DNA from: Candidatus Chryseopegocella kryptomonas
GTDB lineage: Bacteria; Bacteroidota; Ignavibacteria; Kryptoniales; Kryptoniaceae
Length of the DNA stretch: 44,542 nucleotides
Assembly (NCBI RefSeq): GCF_001536065.1
Contig: NZ_CZVW01000017.1
Location: forward strand, 1-44,542
Reading direction: 5' to 3'
The notes beneath the pieces were generated by a model, which saw nothing but the letters and a program-made list of their open reading frames with translations, searched no databases and had not been told where the DNA came from. This document shows positions 27,866 through 35,298 of the stretch, piece by piece. Each line of letters opens with the position of its first letter. Positions within the stretch are counted from its first letter, which is position 1. A program made the position numbers and the translations under genes.

Positions 27866-27900
27866 ATATAAAAAAAGGTCTCAGAAACCTGAGACCTTTT
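27866..27900 (-). terminator. Rho-independent terminator after tsf
   Basis: A perfect 12-bp stem (27873-27884 with 27889-27900) with loop AAAC at 27885-27888. On the minus strand it is followed by a T run. It begins 5 bases after the tsf stop (27905) and separates rpsB-tsf from pyrH-frr. T tracts on both sides mean it could also work on the plus strand. Confidence 0.9.
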
Positions 27901-27904
27901 TCTT

Positions 27905-28510
27905 TTACTTTTCAATATCCTCCCCAAGGTAATATCTTACAAATCTTCTTATGACGATGTTCTCTCCAAATTTAGCAGCTGCTTCGTGAATTAAATCTCT
28001 TATCGTCTTGCCCTGATCTTTGATAAATGGTTGATCAAGCAAGCATACTTCCTCAAAGAACTTTTCAAGTTTGCCTTGCGCTATTTTTTCTGCAATCTCC
28101 TCGGGTTTACCTTCAGCAAGTGCCTGTTCTTTATAAATTTCAAATTCTTTTTTCACAACCTCTTCTGGAAGTTGTTCTCTGCTCACAACTTTTGGGTTCA
28201 TCGCCGTTATCTGCATTGCTATATCACGAGCTAACTGTTTGAACTCATCTGTTCTGGCGACGAAATCAGTTTCACAATTTATTTCAACAATTGCCCCAAC
28301 TCTTCCACCAGCGTGAATGTAAGCTTCAATTAATCCTTGTTTTGTCTCTCTATTTGCGTGTTTTTCAAGAACAGATGCGCCTTTCTTGCGGAGATATTCT
28401 ATAGCTTTTTCAATATCTCCATTTGTCTCCATAAGTGCTTTTTTGCAATCCATTACGCCAGCGCCCGTTTTCTCACGAAGTGTTTTTATTTGTTCAAGAG
28501 TTATTTCCAT
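27905..28510 (-). CDS. tsf: Translation elongation factor Ts
   Basis: EF-Ts exchanges GDP for GTP on EF-Tu. The N-terminal UBA-like region LEQIKTLREKTGAGVMDCKK is followed by GDIEKAIEYLRKKGA and the core domain NCETDFVARTDEFKQLA. The C terminus holds LLDQPFIKD and IVIRRFVRYYLGED. At 201 residues it is the short form that lacks the second core subdomain of E. coli EF-Ts, as in Thermus. It follows rpsB by 24 bases and ends just before a strong terminator. Confidence 0.96.
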   Translation of the reverse strand: MEITLEQIKTLREKTGAGVMDCKKALMETNGDIEKAIEYLRKKGASVLEKHANRETKQGLIEAYIHAGGRVGAIVEINCETDFVARTDEFKQLARDIAMQITAMNPKVVSREQLPEEVVKKEFEIYKEQALAEGKPEEIAEKIAQGKLEKFFEEVCLLDQPFIKDQGKTIRDLIHEAAAKFGENIVIRRFVRYYLGEDIEK

Positions 28511-28534: not shown

Positions 28535-29257
28535 TTATTTTCTTTCAGCTTCAACTAATGATTTTTCAGATTCAAGAACTGCTTTTGCTTCAAGGATAGC
28601 ATCCGTGAAAACACGTGTTATAAGTTGAATTGATTTAATTGCATCATCGTTTGCTGGAATTGGGTAATCAACAAGGTCAGGGTCGCAATTTGTATCAAGC
28701 ATTGCGAAGACAGGTATATTTAATTTTCTTGCTTCGGATACAGCAATATGCTCTTTCTTTATATCAACGATGTAAACAGCTCCTGGAAGCGTCGTCATAT
28801 CTCTTATGCCACCAAGGATTTTCTGATACTTTTCTTTCTCACGCAAAATTTTCAATCTCTCTTTTTTCGTCAATTCATCAATCGTTCCATCTGCTTCCAT
28901 TTTTTCAATGTTTTGAAGCTTCTTAACACTTTTTCTTATAGTCACAAAATTCGTCAAAGTTCCACCAAGCCATCTTTCAATCACATACGGCATCCCAGCT
29001 CTTTCGGCTTCAGTTCTTATGATTTCCTTCGCTTGCTTTTTAGTTCCAACATAAAGAATTTGCTTCCCCTGCAAAACTATTTTCTTAACCTCTTCACAGG
29101 CGATGTCAAGATATTCTTGCGTCTTTTTCAAATCAATGATGTGAATGCCGTTCTTTTCCATAAAAATGAACGGCTTCATCTTTGGATTCCATCTGCGTGT
29201 TAAATGTCCAAAATGGACTCCCGCTTCAAGCAGTTGCTGAAGTTCTACTCTTGGCAT
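28535..29257 (-). CDS. rpsB: 30S ribosomal protein S2
   Basis: S2 of 240 residues with the start [21 protein letters not shown], then [50 protein letters not shown] and [27 protein letters not shown]2 binds the head-body junction of the 30S subunit late in assembly. A GGAGGAG ribosome-binding site lies at 29266-29272. Between this gene and rpsI lies a strongly structured RNA (29295-29384), probably its leader. S2 is known to repress its own rpsB-tsf mRNA in E. coli. Confidence 0.97.
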
Positions 29258-29294
29258 AAAAATTTCTCCTCCGTTTTAGTTTTGGTTTAACCTC

Positions 29295-29384
29295 TACTCT
29301 CCTCACATCTTCGCAAGATTCGGGTTAAATGACCCGAACACCCTTGCGAAGATTATCCCGATTTTACACGGGACTCGGAGAGTA
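29295..29384 (-). promoter_or_regulatory. Candidate ribosomal-protein leader RNA of rpsB (three-way junction)
   Basis: The minus-strand RNA folds into an 8-bp closing stem (29295-29302 with 29377-29384) that encloses two hairpins. One has an 11-bp stem (29307-29317 with 29343-29353), topped by a 7-bp stem (29319-29325 with 29332-29338) and a 6-base loop. The other is a 5-bp stem (29356-29360 with 29369-29373) with an 8-base loop. There is no U run, so it is not a terminator. It ends 37 bases before the rpsB ATG. Only 15 bases separate it from the rpsI stop, so it is probably reached by read-through from rplM-rpsI or by a promoter inside rpsI. Confidence 0.75.
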
Positions 29385-29399
29385 TGTGTGATAGAAAAA

Positions 29400-29792
29400 T
29401 TATCTCTTTGAGAATTGGAATCTTTTTCTCGCTTTTGGTTGACCGTATTTCTTGCGTTCAACCATACGTGGATCTCTTGTCAAAAGTCCATATTGACGCA
29501 AAATTTTTCTATATGTCTCATCAACTTTTAAAAGAGCTCTTGCTATCCCAAGCCGAATTGCACCAGCTTGACCTGTTAAACCACCGCCTTCAACTCTCGC
29601 TATAACATCAAATTGCCCAAGTGTATTTGTCACAACGAATGGTTGAAGTATATCAACTCTGTGTGCTTCAATAGGGAAATAGTTTTCAAAATCTCTCTTA
29701 TTCACGGTGATTTTCCCAGTTCCCGGGATAAGTCGCACTCTTGCAACTGATGTTTTTCTTCTTCCAACCGCATCATATGAAATTACAGCCAT
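29400..29792 (-). CDS. rpsI: 30S ribosomal protein S9
   Basis: S9 of 130 residues: [20 protein letters not shown] at the start, [32 protein letters not shown] and the basic C terminus [17 protein letters not shown], which reaches the P-site tRNA in the ribosome. It follows rplM by 23 bases, the nearly universal rplM-rpsI pair. Confidence 0.97.
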
Positions 29793-30366: not shown

Positions 30367-31767
30367 TCACTCCCGCAATTTTCCAGCAATATAAACCAAA
30401 AGTGATGCTAAAAGCCCCGGAAACATCGGCTCAAGACCAAATGGATATGATGGCGTCCCATCTGATGATTTGAAAATATAACCAAGAACAAACGAAAGAA
30501 GCGAAAACAAAAAACCCGAAAGCATCGTCAGAAAAGCAACTCTTGGCGTCGGTGTCAAATTTTCAAAATATGTTGTGATGACAGGAATCAAAAGCCCCGG
30601 AATTGTCAATGTCCCAATTATATACCACAGGTCAACCACGGACGGAAAATATATCGCAAAAAGAATTGATGTTATCAAGGTTATCAAAAGTCCAATCCTT
30701 GTGTAAAAATTTATCTTTGCTTCGTTGTTATGTGTCTTTTTTAATTTCCAGATTATATCATTTCCAATCGTAACAGCAGATATAAATGTTAATGTGTTAA
30801 GTGTTGACATAATCGTTGCGAGCATCCCGATGTAAAATAAACCTTTGGCAACCTTTGGCAAAACAACTTCCGCAAGCGATGGATAAGCCATAATTGGTTG
30901 ATCAAGATTTGGTAAAATTGCTCTTGCGTAAAGACCAGCGGTCATAGTCATAAAATCAAAAATCATCCAAAATAAAATTGCTATTAAAATCCCATATTTT
31001 GCGGTCTTCCCATCTTTTGCTGCATAACATCGCTGATAAAATCCCGGATCAACGAGCGTCCATATCGCAATCAAAAACCATGCAATTATATATTGAATTG
31101 AATTTCCACCCGTTAAACTCAACGCTTGATCTGGCAGATTTGAAAGCAAAAAATCAATCCCACCAAATTTTGCACTCGCAAAAGGAATTATCAAACCGAA
31201 ACCAGCAAACATCAAAAAGAACTCAAAAATATCTGTGTAAACATCTGATCTAAATCCACCAGCGAAAAGATAACTTACGGATAAAATCGTGCTTAAAACT
31301 ATGCTCAATTTTAAATCAAGATTGAATATCATCTGGAATAAAACACCAAGCATCAAAAAGTAAGGTGCTGGCGTTACAAGGATTAATGTGAGAATCGTTC
31401 CGAGAAACGAGGTTTTTTTATCATAGACCTGTGCAAGACGATCTGGAATAGTGAAAAGTTTTGATTTGCGAACTTTCTCCGCAAGAAGAAAAGCAAACAA
31501 TGCTCCAAAGATGTAATAAGGTAACCCAAACACAAGCCACACCGAGATTCCATACTTGTATGTAAATTCTCCAACACCGAGAATTCCACCATACCAAGTT
31601 GAAACAAGCGTCGCAACAAACATCGGAAGCGTTATGCTTCTGCCAGCAAGGAGATACTCTTCAACTGCGTCATTATCTTTTTTCTTTGCTCTAAATCCAA
31701 TGAAAAGAACGCTCGCAAAGTAAAGAACTATTAAAATTATGTCCTCTATCGCAAGATTTGCTCTCAT
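30367..31767 (-). CDS. Sodium:solute symporter (SSS family), candidate thiamin transporter
   Basis: A 466-residue inner-membrane protein with about 12-13 hydrophobic segments and the SSS/PutP-like pattern. VEEYLLAGRSITLPMFVATL precedes STWYGGILGVGEFTYKYGIS in the first helices, and GLFYIGMLATIMSTLNTLTF lies in the sodium-site region. SSS proteins couple sodium influx to uptake of sugars, amino acids or vitamins. Its ATG overlaps the stop of thiamin pyrophosphokinase (ATGA), and the same direction holds a TPP-riboswitch-controlled TonB receptor. From this I infer thiamin or a precursor as the substrate. The membrane family is clear, the substrate is inference. Confidence 0.85.
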   Translation of the reverse strand: MRANLAIEDIILIVLYFASVLFIGFRAKKKDNDAVEEYLLAGRSITLPMFVATLVSTWYGGILGVGEFTYKYGISVWLVFGLPYYIFGALFAFLLAEKVRKSKLFTIPDRLAQVYDKKTSFLGTILTLILVTPAPYFLMLGVLFQMIFNLDLKLSIVLSTILSVSYLFAGGFRSDVYTDIFEFFLMFAGFGLIIPFASAKFGGIDFLLSNLPDQALSLTGGNSIQYIIAWFLIAIWTLVDPGFYQRCYAAKDGKTAKYGILIAILFWMIFDFMTMTAGLYARAILPNLDQPIMAYPSLAEVVLPKVAKGLFYIGMLATIMSTLNTLTFISAVTIGNDIIWKLKKTHNNEAKINFYTRIGLLITLITSILFAIYFPSVVDLWYIIGTLTIPGLLIPVITTYFENLTPTPRVAFLTMLSGFLFSLLSFVLGYIFKSSDGTPSYPFGLEPMFPGLLASLLVYIAGKLRE

Positions 31768-32402
31768 AATTCAGGCGAAGTTATTTTTCTAATCACAAAC
31801 AATCCACCTCTTTTAATTTCAATTGAAACTCGTTTTCCCATTGCAACATTGCTCACACCTCTACCGCTGAAAATTAATGTCTCGTTGTTAAGTTTAAATT
31901 TCAAACCTTTCGTTTTGACTCCATCTGCTTTTAATCCAAGCGGTATGAGTGAAATTGAATCACCTTTGTTTGTTTTAAAAGTTATTTTATCTTTCGTGAA
32001 AAATATCTCCATTGTTTCGTCAATAATTTTCAACTTTGCTTTTGCATAGAAATTTACAAGCACACTTAAATTCCCAAGGTTATGGTCAATTCTGTCGCCA
32101 ATTGCGGAGGCAATATCAATTTGAGTAAATCCCCGAGATAAAAGAAACTTTACGGATTTTTCTATATCAGTGCTATCTTGATCTGTGTCGTGAATTATCT
32201 TGACATTTTTACGCTCAAAAAATTTTTTAACATCCTGCTTTATTGAATCAAGATCGCCGATGATAAAATCGGGCAAAATTCTGAATTTGAATGCTATGTT
32301 TGCACCACCATCGGCACAAGCGATCGCATCATAATTTTTGATGATACTTCGCAAAAATTTCGCTTTCGGGACATTGCCATTGCAGATTAAAAGAGATTTC
32401 AA
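31764..32402 (-). CDS. thiN: Thiamin pyrophosphokinase
   Basis: This enzyme transfers pyrophosphate from ATP to thiamin to give TPP, so it serves salvage of the imported vitamin. The 212-residue protein has AIACADGGANIAFKF, FIIGDLDSIKQDV, the acidic motif HDTDQDSTDIEKSVKFLLSR and AIGDRIDHNLGNLSVL in the family order. The C-terminal beta domain holds LIPLGLKADGVKTKGLKF and IFSGRGVSNVAMGKRVSIEI. The start is a TTG at 32402 with a GAGG site about 5 bases upstream; there is no nearby ATG that keeps the N-terminal strand. It overlaps the SSS symporter by four bases and follows the TonB receptor behind a terminator. Confidence 0.93.
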   Translation of the reverse strand: MKSLLICNGNVPKAKFLRSIIKNYDAIACADGGANIAFKFRILPDFIIGDLDSIKQDVKKFFERKNVKIIHDTDQDSTDIEKSVKFLLSRGFTQIDIASAIGDRIDHNLGNLSVLVNFYAKAKLKIIDETMEIFFTKDKITFKTNKGDSISLIPLGLKADGVKTKGLKFKLNNETLIFSGRGVSNVAMGKRVSIEIKRGGLFVIRKITSPEL

Positions 32403-32435
32403 GACGACCTCAATTTTCTGGAAAATCGTGGGAAA

Positions 32436-32462
32436 AAGAAGGGGGTGAAATCAATCACCCCC
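32436..32462 (-). terminator. Rho-independent terminator after the TonB-dependent receptor
   Basis: An 8-bp GC-rich stem (32441-32448 with 32455-32462), a 6-base loop, and on the minus strand a tail of mostly T. It lies 8 bases after the receptor stop and about 38 bases before the thiN start, so thiN and the symporter depend on partial read-through or on their own promoter. Confidence 0.8.
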
Positions 32463-32470
32463 TATATAAT

Positions 32471-34990
32471 TTAAAGGTCAAACCCAATACTTACAAAGTA
32501 ATTTCTCTCTGCACCAGGATAAAAATCATCCCCAACTCCAGAACCAGCATAAAGTGCGTTGAAGAGATTATTTACCTGCAACTTCAACTCAATGTTTTTC
32601 AAGCCCAGAATCTTTTCAAATCTATATGCAATGGTTAGATCAAAAACAGTATAAGCATCAACTTTTCTATCTTTCCTTGCGACATTGTTTGATGGGACGA
32701 GATTAAAATTATCTGTGTAAAATTCACCAACATATTTCCCGAGAAGTGAAATCAAAAATCCATAATTTCTATAACTTACCCTCGCCGAGCCAATGTAATC
32801 TGGAAATCCTGCAATCTTCTTCCCATCAAGCGAAATTCTCTGCGGAGTTGAATAACTTTCTCCTGTATATGGATTTTTCCAGACATATTCACCGTGTTTG
32901 ACTATTCTGTTTCTGCTTATCGTTGCATTTCCAGTGAATTCAAGTCCATTTATTAACAAATTTTTAATCTCCGCTGTTAATTCAACTCCAAGATGTCTTG
33001 TTCTTTCAGCATTTCCAATGATTGGATCACCGAAGATATTTAATTGTCCGCTTTTGACGAGTTCATTTCTAAAGTCCATATAATAAAAGTTCGCTGTGAA
33101 TTTGTAATCATCGCTAAAATATCCAGCGCCAAGTTCAAGGTCAAAAAGACGCTCTGGTTTTACAAGTGGCTTCGTGAAATCAAAAGTTCCATCTGGTTTA
33201 ACTTCAAAATTCGGTCTTTTCCCCCATGGATACCAATGTCCATCGCTTGCATCGTATAAATCTCTTCTGCTTGGCTCACGATTTGTGATTGAGAAACTTC
33301 CAAATATGTTTATGTTCTGCGTTAAATCATAACTTATCCCAATTTTTGGATTCAAAAAGTAATACGGCACTGAAAATTCATTGCTTACCCATTTACCAGT
33401 GTCATAGTCATAAAATTCTTTCTCATCGTAAACCCTGTATCTGTTATAAACAAACTGCAAACTTGCCATCAATCTTAAATTTTGTTTCAGACGCCAGAAT
33501 TCGTGGATATAAAACGAAATAATATCTTTTGCGCCCTTATACTCATAAAATCTGTAATCACTTGGCAAACCTTTTGGCAGGTTTTGAGCCCAGACGATTT
33601 TGCCCCAATGAAATCCTCTATGGATTCTGAATTCAGCCCCAATCGTTAGTTCGCCATTTTGATGTTTGAGGGTTAATCTCGGTAGCCATCCATACTGGTT
33701 TAGGTCAATGAAATATCTTGCGATTGCTTCGCCAGGGTTTTCAGATGGAATAGCAAAGTTAAATTTTTCTGCATATGGCTTTGATAAACGAAAATAAACT
33801 GTATCTCCCCAAGAAGCATCCATATCCCAGAAACCAACACCACGAATATAAAACAAAGTATTGTTAAGTGTTAGGTTCTCTCCAAATCTCCATTCGTGCA
33901 AAAGTTCATAATGTGGCTGACTGAAATTTTCAATCTCATCATCTCTTGTCGTCACATCCATATAGTTCAGGTTTGCTCTTCTTTTTGTTTTGTCTTTCAC
34001 CCATTCCTTTGGAATTCCACGATATACGAGGTGATCTTCAAACGGACCACCGTAGAGATTTATCTGCGTCGTCATATTGTCGTCGTATCTAATTGCACTG
34101 AAAAAGTATGATGGGAATTTAGCCCATGATTTTTCTCTATAACCGTCTGTTGCTATGTATGAGAGACGGCTGTAAAGTGAATATCTGTTTGCGATCAAGC
34201 CAGAATTGATTGCTATGGAATGTTTTTTTGTGTTGTAACTTCCGTAACCTGTAAAAAGTGAAATTTTTGGTTCAAGTGAAAAGTTTGAAGTTATGATGTT
34301 AACAGAACCACCGATAGCGGGAGGTCCGTAGAATGCACTTCCAGCGCCCCGTTGAATTTGCACAGCGTTGGAACTTGCAAGAAGGTCGGGCATATCAAGC
34401 CAGTAAACGCCGTGATCCTCTGGATCATTTTGAGGTATTCCATTTACAAGAACAGAAATTCGCCTTTGATCAAATCCACGAATGTTTAAGTAATTATATC
34501 CAATTCCGTTTCCAGACCATGAATATGATAAAACCGAGGGGAGTTCAGAAAGTAGGATTGGGACATCTTGGGTTGTGTAAAAATCTTTTATCTGCTGTTT
34601 ATCAAGATTTGAAAAGACAACAGGTGATTCTCTTTCACTTGCAATAAGTGCAGTTACAACGATTGTTTGTGAAGGCAAAGCAGTCGGTTTGAGATAGAAA
34701 TTCAAATTTATTTCTTCACCCGGGCTTAAATCAATTTGTTTTTTTTGCTTTTCATAACCAACAAAGCTTGCTACAACATTTATTTTTCCAGCTGGGACAT
34801 TGTTTATCTCAAAATATCCATTTTGATCAGTCGCTGAGCCAAGTTTTAAATTTTCTATATAAACATTCGTCCCCGGAAGCGGTTTATCTGTTTCTGCGTC
34901 AAAAACATAACCTTTGATTTTGCTTTGTGAGAGCAAATTTAAGAATAGAATTGAAACAAGCGATAGAGTCAAAACTAATTTTTTAAGCAT
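32471..34990 (-). CDS. TonB-dependent outer-membrane receptor, probably for thiamin
   Basis: An 839-residue protein. A signal peptide (residues 1-22) is followed by a carboxypeptidase-D-like beta domain (about 25-100, GYVFDAETDKPLPGTNVYIE). A possible TonB box is QTIVVTA near 107. The plug domain then shows YLNIRGFDQRRISVLVNGIP and IQRGAGSAFYGPPAIGGSVN, and the rest is a long beta-barrel ending in an aromatic-rich strand (NYFVSIGFDL). Such receptors import scarce nutrients through the outer membrane using the energised TonB-ExbBD system. A GGAGG site lies at 34998-35003. The TPP riboswitch with terminator in its leader strongly suggests thiamin or a thiamin precursor as the ligand. Confidence 0.95.
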   Translation of the reverse strand: MLKKLVLTLSLVSILFLNLLSQSKIKGYVFDAETDKPLPGTNVYIENLKLGSATDQNGYFEINNVPAGKINVVASFVGYEKQKKQIDLSPGEEINLNFYLKPTALPSQTIVVTALIASERESPVVFSNLDKQQIKDFYTTQDVPILLSELPSVLSYSWSGNGIGYNYLNIRGFDQRRISVLVNGIPQNDPEDHGVYWLDMPDLLASSNAVQIQRGAGSAFYGPPAIGGSVNIITSNFSLEPKISLFTGYGSYNTKKHSIAINSGLIANRYSLYSRLSYIATDGYREKSWAKFPSYFFSAIRYDDNMTTQINLYGGPFEDHLVYRGIPKEWVKDKTKRRANLNYMDVTTRDDEIENFSQPHYELLHEWRFGENLTLNNTLFYIRGVGFWDMDASWGDTVYFRLSKPYAEKFNFAIPSENPGEAIARYFIDLNQYGWLPRLTLKHQNGELTIGAEFRIHRGFHWGKIVWAQNLPKGLPSDYRFYEYKGAKDIISFYIHEFWRLKQNLRLMASLQFVYNRYRVYDEKEFYDYDTGKWVSNEFSVPYYFLNPKIGISYDLTQNINIFGSFSITNREPSRRDLYDASDGHWYPWGKRPNFEVKPDGTFDFTKPLVKPERLFDLELGAGYFSDDYKFTANFYYMDFRNELVKSGQLNIFGDPIIGNAERTRHLGVELTAEIKNLLINGLEFTGNATISRNRIVKHGEYVWKNPYTGESYSTPQRISLDGKKIAGFPDYIGSARVSYRNYGFLISLLGKYVGEFYTDNFNLVPSNNVARKDRKVDAYTVFDLTIAYRFEKILGLKNIELKLQVNNLFNALYAGSGVGDDFYPGAERNYFVSIGFDL

Positions 34991-35032
34991 GTTTTTACCT
35001 CCGTTTTTTATTTTTTGGGATTGAGATTCAAG

Positions 35033-35060
35033 CCCGTGGGGGTGAGGGAAGGTCGGGAGG
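35033..35060 (-). promoter_or_regulatory. Candidate anti-aptamer segment downstream of the TPP-riboswitch terminator
   Basis: In the minus-strand RNA this segment, between the terminator and the ribosome-binding site, is complementary in order to the 5' half of the aptamer. The pairs are 12 bp perfect (35033-35044 with 35221-35232), a 4-bp block, and 8 bp perfect (35053-35060 with 35201-35208). It would compete with P1 and the neighbouring aptamer helices. Confidence 0.5.
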
Positions 35061-35074
35061 GATTAAGAAGAGAA

Positions 35075-35123
35075 CAAAAAAGCCGTTTTTCCACAGAGAA
35101 ATCAGCATAGGGAAAAACGGCTT
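35075..35123 (-). terminator. Intrinsic terminator of the TPP riboswitch expression platform
   Basis: A 13-bp stem (35080-35092 with 35111-35123) followed on the minus strand by a run of T. Its 5' arm can instead pair with the 3' side of the aptamer (35148-35156), giving a classic antiterminator. With TPP bound, P1 holds that aptamer strand and the terminator forms, which lowers receptor expression. Confidence 0.85.
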
Positions 35124-35143
35124 AACAGAAATTCTGTAGTCGC

Positions 35144-35235
<92 letters not shown>

Positions 35236-35298
35236 CAAAAAGTTAAAGAACGAAATTTTGCATTTAAAATTTAACGCCCGTGAGATTAAAAAACAAAT

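Follow-up and report, generated by a model that had tools for sequence, protein, structure and literature searches.

The window analyzed here, a 44,542-nt stretch of the genome of Candidatus Chryseopegocella kryptomonas, carries on its minus strand a group of translation-associated genes in the order rplM-rpsI-[spacer]-rpsB-tsf. The first of these, rplM (30289-29816), is followed by rpsI, encoding uS9 (29400-29792; NF001099, 191.4 bits), and a 142-nt spacer (29258-29399) that contains the leader RNA described below. Directly behind the leader lies rpsB, encoding uS2 (28535-29257; TIGR01011, 343.4 bits, and PF00318, 329.4 bits), and then tsf, encoding EF-Ts (27905-28510; TIGR00116, 211.5 bits), the co-regulation of which is presumed. 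A terminator scan detected no terminator-like site within the rpsI-rpsB spacer, and a promoter scan detected no promoter-like site on its minus strand. The preliminary description of this DNA had rpsB-tsf ending at a strong terminator of its own; an inverted repeat is indeed present just past the tsf stop codon (27872-27901), but the scan scored it as terminator-like on the plus strand only, and the T run on its minus strand forms part of the stem. Transcription of rpsB-tsf as a unit of its own, in line with the separate control proposed in that description, is a possibility.

Across the whole window, an Rfam search at gathering thresholds returned a thiamine pyrophosphate (TPP) riboswitch and two tRNAs and nothing else, while a match to snoR35 at 29105-29168 (E 4.4, 12.8 of the 40 bits needed) was dismissed as noise. 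The TPP riboswitch (RF00059, 75 bits) heads a minus-strand gene group at 30367-35237, behind which are encoded a TonB-dependent receptor, a thiamine diphosphokinase (TIGR01378) and a sodium:solute symporter family protein (PF00474). This gene group is likely a thiamin-uptake operon, and its symporter may represent the inner-membrane thiamin transporter.

Read on the minus strand, the leader folds between 29384 and 29295. Its basal stem, P1, is formed by a 5′ arm, UACUCUCC (29377-29384), which pairs with a 3′ arm, GGAGAGUA (29295-29302), over 8 bp. P2 pairs 29343-29353 with 29317-29307 over 11 bp, and P3 pairs 29332-29339 with 29325-29318 through seven Watson-Crick pairs and one G-U pair, the two being separated on the 5′ side by the bulge GGU (29340-29342). 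Inserted in the internal loop between P1 and P2 is an accessory hairpin (29355-29374), whose arms, GUCCCG (29374-29369) and CGGGAU (29360-29355), form five Watson-Crick pairs and one G-U pair. The helices of 8, 11+7 and 5 bp of the preliminary description were thus recovered on the minus strand, and the distance from the 3′ end of P1 (29295) to the start of rpsB (29257) leaves the 37 intervening bases that it had counted. The 90-nt segment has a minimum free energy (MFE) of -46.9 kcal/mol (z-score, -7.7), a value matched by none of 200 dinucleotide shuffles and by none of 2,964 90-nt pieces sampled from the whole window (step of 30, both strands); the next most stable piece (-36.3) overlapped the TPP riboswitch. 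The shuffles and the window-wide stability scan rule out a chance hairpin. The empty terminator scan of the spacer rules out a terminator, in agreement with the terminator tail having been reported as missing.

To place this structure in an evolutionary context, two sets of rpsB loci were assembled. An rpsB match was obtained in 58 of the 61 genomes searched, the window's own included, 30 of which were turned into loci, and a contig search added a further 80 loci, being the best 80 of 500; as the two sets overlap in part (L009/L032 and L014/L040, for example, lie on the same contig), the resulting 110 loci do not equate to a species count. The rpsI-rpsB spacer is at least 60 nt long in 78 of these loci and measures 5 to 32 nt in the other 32. 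In an author-chosen alignment of 34 sequences, A4, 92.9% of the cells are paired, as opposed to 71.5% in shuffles, and two-sided changes occur at 24 of 26 pairs; the covariation score of 0.665 compares with 0.241 for shuffled alignments and was reached by none of 500 shuffles, and sliding the partners by one to three columns as a control lowered pairing to 43 to 52%. In A4, P1 has two-sided changes at all seven modeled pairs and 100% of cells paired. A second alignment, A3 (49 hits, 48 of them distinct), was fitted to the covariance model R1 introduced below and is hence biased toward it; here 25 of 26 pairs covary, and all three helices covary across A3 and A4. In the distant sequence set, the P2 columns aligned poorly.

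Compensatory change among close relatives, the lack of which the preliminary description had named as a refutation, was likewise found. Among six sequences from the same genus, 97.0% of cells are paired and two-sided changes occur at 9 of 35 pairs, namely, at 4 of the 11 pairs of P2 and 5 of the 8 pairs of P3; within these six sequences no such change was detected in P1, which is almost invariant within the genus, or in the five counted pairs of the accessory hairpin, and the number of further pair types did not exceed that of shuffles (15 versus a mean of 15.9). The RNA of the rpsI-rpsB spacer is confirmed as a real structure with a strongly conserved fold.

The conserved core consists of P1, the internal loop, P2, a 3-nt xGU bulge and P3, and the common pattern in relatives, with variation, may be written CAUAC-P1-GAU-P2-xGU-GU-P3-P2′-AnnAUGA-P1′-UAGARG. 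The hairpin at 29374-29355 is accessory and of limited distribution. It is present in the window and in L002 to L005 and is missing from the same-genus locus L006, the flanks of which are otherwise alike; in A4, an insert occupies this site in 10 of 34 rows, five of which belong to family f2 and carry larger inserts, and the remaining 24 rows, L006 among them, have none. These absences are the reason for regarding the hairpin as an accessory element. A three-way junction, by which the preliminary description had characterized the RNA, does exist in the window, but it was rejected as a defining feature, since without the accessory hairpin the element is a bulged hairpin that lacks such a junction. 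Five genomes of family f33, from the same phylum (L122 to L125 and L141), have an insert of their own in the P1/P2 internal loop, at the position occupied in the window.

A further component, overlooked in the preliminary description, is a pseudoknot in which the bulge GGU (29342-29340) pairs with ACC (29286-29284), a strand that begins 8 nt after P1. It is followed, 11 nt downstream, by the Shine-Dalgarno-like sequence GGAGGAG (29266-29272). In relatives, the xGU bulge is complementary to an ACx′ strand located mostly 8 to 12 nt after P1′, with GGU/ACC, AGU/ACU and UGU/ACA as alternative versions and with 5-bp forms such as CCUGU/ACAGG. When the first 45 nt of the 3′ extension were scanned in 72 distinct rows (left from 75 once duplicates and a single row with an unreadable bulge had been removed, the bulge having been placed by hand-picked strings in 26 of the 75), a 3-bp complement to the bulge was found in 65 sequences, against a mean of 38.7 and a maximum of 51 in 5,000 permutations. 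The corresponding counts in 5,000 permutations were 43 of 72 against a mean of 13.6 for a 4-bp complement and 16 of 72 against a mean of 3.3 for a 5-bp complement. When the 3′ base was assigned by a fixed rule, complementarity held in 64 of 73 sequences and was lacking in 9. Placed on an S2 tree, the pseudoknot base changed at least 10 times; depending on the coding, one to four of these changes are independent and well supported, a number too small for a sign test to reach 0.05, and in them the partner base followed or stayed and never did the opposite. Within the genus, the pseudoknot comprises 3 to 4 bp and is nearly invariant.

The 3′ strand of the pseudoknot lies close to the ribosome binding site. 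Both this strand and a Shine-Dalgarno sequence could be read in 65 sequences. The strand stops 0 to 13 nt short of the Shine-Dalgarno sequence in 53 of these, and in 9 the two overlap, with two of the overlaps resting on a questionable Shine-Dalgarno call; several relatives, among them L041, L048, L059, L063 and L076, have a strand that takes in part of the Shine-Dalgarno sequence itself. In five loci from the same order (L016, L024, L025, L028 and L030), the linker between P1′ and ACC appears by eye to be longer and to hold a further hairpin, and ACC still adjoins the Shine-Dalgarno sequence, as if spacing to the latter rather than to P1 mattered. Inspection of L084 (approximately positions 1185 to 1500) and L087 (approximately 1161 to 1500), which represent one Rhodothermaceae and one Salinibacteraceae contig, revealed a long coding-like stretch that runs from an ATG between the leader and the aligned S2 start, which suggests that S2 is N-terminally extended in these two loci.

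These conserved features bear on the view that the structure is a processing or stability element, that is, an RNase III-type hairpin that splits the rpsI and rpsB messages and has no protein ligand. Long, near-perfect stems (P2 and P3, 18 to 19 bp) in an intercistronic spacer, combined with the empty terminator and minus-strand promoter scans, are what such an element would present; a cleavage hairpin, however, would need neither the conserved unpaired letters (GA and xGUGU) nor the complementary strand that most sequences carry at a comparable distance, and the related leader of E. coli is described as a uS2 operator (PMC10931766). A processing element is, accordingly, considered very unlikely.

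The gene order raises a second alternative, according to which the leader is the autoregulatory site for the product of an upstream gene, either L13 or S9, within an rplM-rpsI-rpsB transcript. Both rplM and rpsI lie directly upstream of the leader, and the genes listed for the L13 leader of Bacteroidia are rplM, rpsI and also rpsB (Eckert and Weinberg, PMC7247131). Against this stands the association of the element with rpsB in other gene contexts: the t44-matching leader of E. coli precedes rpsB with map, and not rpsI, upstream, and the SAR11 rpsB motif is placed between dnaE and rpsB (PMC2704228). In addition, the 5- to 32-nt spacers of 32 of the 110 loci (some of them duplicates, and many titled Sphingobacterium or other Bacteroidia) leave no room for such a leader between rpsI and rpsB. 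We, therefore, judge an L13 or S9 site to be exceedingly improbable, and the evidence is read below in terms of a leader that responds to uS2.

The distribution of the leader was assessed with two covariance models. R1, constructed from 19 sequences with no member of the same genus, was run against 75 long spacers and matched 63 of them as well as the window. It scored 49.1 bits for the same-genus locus L006 and 29.6 bits (E 0.0017) for the window, where the match starts inside the accessory hairpin (29357), which puts its 5′ end out of register. No R1 match was obtained in 15 of 79 sources. These comprise the E. coli leader L111; three loci that match the Rfam t44 model instead (L052, L064 and L095); two with spacers of only 32 and 18 nt (L071 and L098, respectively); eight in which the core is visible by eye only (L026, L037, L051, L062, L068, L078, L080 and L108); and L049, in which no core was seen. 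A second model, R2, was trained on sequences that include the window, and the 67.2 bits it assigns to the window are, for that reason, not independent evidence. Under strict filters, by which weak matches are lost, R2 gave a single hit in each positive genome; at E ≤ 1 these were 105 of the 197 genomes from the same class, and at E ≤ 0.1 they were 46 of the 296 from the same phylum. All 54 hits checked for position, that of the window among them, sit 15 to 82 nt upstream of rpsB on the same strand; rpsB was already placed for 41 of them and the other 13 were fetched, and at least 18 of the 54 had served to train R2 (17 via loci, plus G125, the contig of L031).

A comparison with Rfam ribosomal protein leaders, also proposed in the preliminary description, connects the element to t44 (RF00127). 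The t44 model matches the rpsB leader of the same-genus genome G006 with 43.0 bits (E 4.7e-8; gathering threshold, 44) and that of the same-class genome G102 with 44.9 bits, above the gathering threshold. Even at E ≤ 10 it misses the copy of the genome to which the window belongs, as well as those of G001, G002 and G004, and the sole match in G003 is at chance level (E 6.5) and located on a contig other than that of rpsB. The window copy does not reach the Rfam gathering cut-off and so gives no t44 hit, the cut-off being a detection threshold rather than a biological criterion; 20 related loci likewise returned nothing from Rfam at gathering. It is perhaps the inserted hairpin that causes the t44 model to miss the window copy. 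Among 11 loci scanned with t44, the rpsB spacer was matched in 4 (L064, L054, L095 and L052; E 2e-4 to 0.03), of which only L064 is titled candidate division KSB1, the other three being titled "bacterium," while 7 gave no match, including the KSB1-titled L062 and L068. Matches in L132 and L133 (E about 0.2, no rpsB in the fetched stretch) were taken as noise. The t44 model also matches the control genome of Thermotoga maritima; this match presumably lies under the cut-off, as a single control passes and E. coli is that one.

These searches also speak to the possibility that an S2-binding leader evolved in this phylum independently of that of E. coli. R1 misses the E. coli leader, and t44 misses the window copy and most relatives, with matches at E ≤ 1 in only 9 of 100 same-class genomes, 7 of which are at rpsB. 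Conversely, t44 exceeds its gathering threshold in G102 and nearly does so in the same-genus G006, it matches another three loci with E values between 2e-4 and 4e-4, always at the rpsB leader, and similar letters are apparent by eye around the stem foot, the bulge and the 3′ extension. We consider such convergence unlikely, if less so than the two alternatives above. Membership of the leader in the t44 family, as favored here, rests on a chain of relatives, because R1 misses L111. By these sequence criteria, the leader is assigned to the known S2 leader family (rpsB motif/t44, RF00127), to which it adds an accessory hairpin, and the core does not appear to be lineage specific: it corresponds to the known motif and recurs in many relatives of the class and in some members of the wider phylum, contrary to the lineage-specific type that had been suggested.

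Taken together, we regard it as highly probable, judging from sequence comparison, that the spacer RNA is an autogenous uS2 operator of the rpsB-motif/t44 type that also carries a hairpin of restricted occurrence. The S2-type autoregulatory leader foreseen in the preliminary description is, as a prediction, well supported, both by its resemblance to the family and by covariation. Autoregulation by uS2 is known in E. coli, where the t44-type leader is the uS2 operator and bS1 acts as a co-repressor (PMC10931766). In the present leader, uS2 in excess over 30S subunits would bind the bulged hairpin and prevent the pseudoknot from opening next to the ribosome binding site, or over it in some relatives, and translation of rpsB would thereby be blocked; expression of tsf would be lowered along with that of rpsB, through coupling or mRNA loss. 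According to PMC10931766, the E. coli operator excludes the ribosome binding site, which speaks against simple occlusion, and its mechanism is unclear. bS1 could help repression in this lineage also. Near full-length rpsA matches (positions 11 to 515 of 516; 568.5 to 569.3 bits, just below the 577-bit cut-off) were found in the same-genus genomes G001, G003 and G004, and a search for rpsA in the window's own genome, the assembly of which is about 79% complete, yielded two short S1-domain matches only.

A more elaborate scenario, to which we attach a low probability, is that the inserts in the P1/P2 loop seen in the window's genus, in the sister family f2 and in f33 constitute a recurrent add-on that makes the S2 leader a two-input device, and that the pseudoknot of some relatives titled Ignavibacteriaceae or Melioribacteraceae acts as a direct Shine-Dalgarno-sequestering switch (CCUGU with ACAGG, of which AGG is part of the Shine-Dalgarno sequence). 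The inserts could, for instance, provide another ribosomal protein site or tune how the pseudoknot closes.

The leader is, in summary, a genuine element with strong support and of an ordinary kind. Its interest lies partly in its range: most E. coli ribosomal protein leader structures reportedly lack a wide distribution (PMC4647458), and a covarying S2 leader carried by roughly one in two of the genomes sampled from the class (105/197) would rank among the more widespread ribosomal protein operators. The location of the pseudoknot strand near or over the Shine-Dalgarno sequence in relatives suggests a mechanism, in that its closing could hinder ribosome entry. As the t44 model overlooks most of these leaders, a broader model would allow their annotation.

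Among known systems, the L13 leader of Bacteroidia resembles the present element in occurring in the rplM-rpsI(-rpsB) gene group of the same phylum (Eckert and Weinberg 2020, PMC7247131). It differs in its ligand and is listed there for rplM, whereas the window element follows rpsI and precedes rpsB and is not located upstream of rplM. No description of an S2 leader in these lineages was found in the literature searched, a search outside which Fu et al. 2013 falls. The rpsB motif, as described by Meyer et al. in 2009, comprises a long stem, variable capping stems and junction nucleotides that pair with a 3′ extension, and its reported range covers most Alpha- and Gammaproteobacteria, a few other Proteobacteria, Cyanobacteria and some Firmicutes (PMC2704228). 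The window element shares with this motif its location 5′ of rpsB, the long stem and the apical stems of variable length, and in both the motif and the sequences studied here the pseudoknot with the extension after the basal stem comprises 3 to 5 bp. Two differences emerge when descriptions are compared: Bacteroidota, from which the present leaders derive, are absent from the motif description in PMC2704228, and the optional helix of the motif, termed P2 there, is placed at the top junction, whereas the extra hairpin of the window lies in the lower internal loop. The t44 RNA (RF00127) is the rpsB leader of E. coli, typed as an sRNA in Rfam, and its Rfam structure line, unlike the leader presented here, is drawn without a pseudoknot. 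It nevertheless shares with this leader the basal stem, one-sided loops and an apical hairpin, has a 4-nt bulge with GGUG, and in the E. coli leader carries GUGGAGGC-UAAC after the stem. By our reading of its sequence, the E. coli leader L111 follows the same plan, with GGGGU facing ACCCC.
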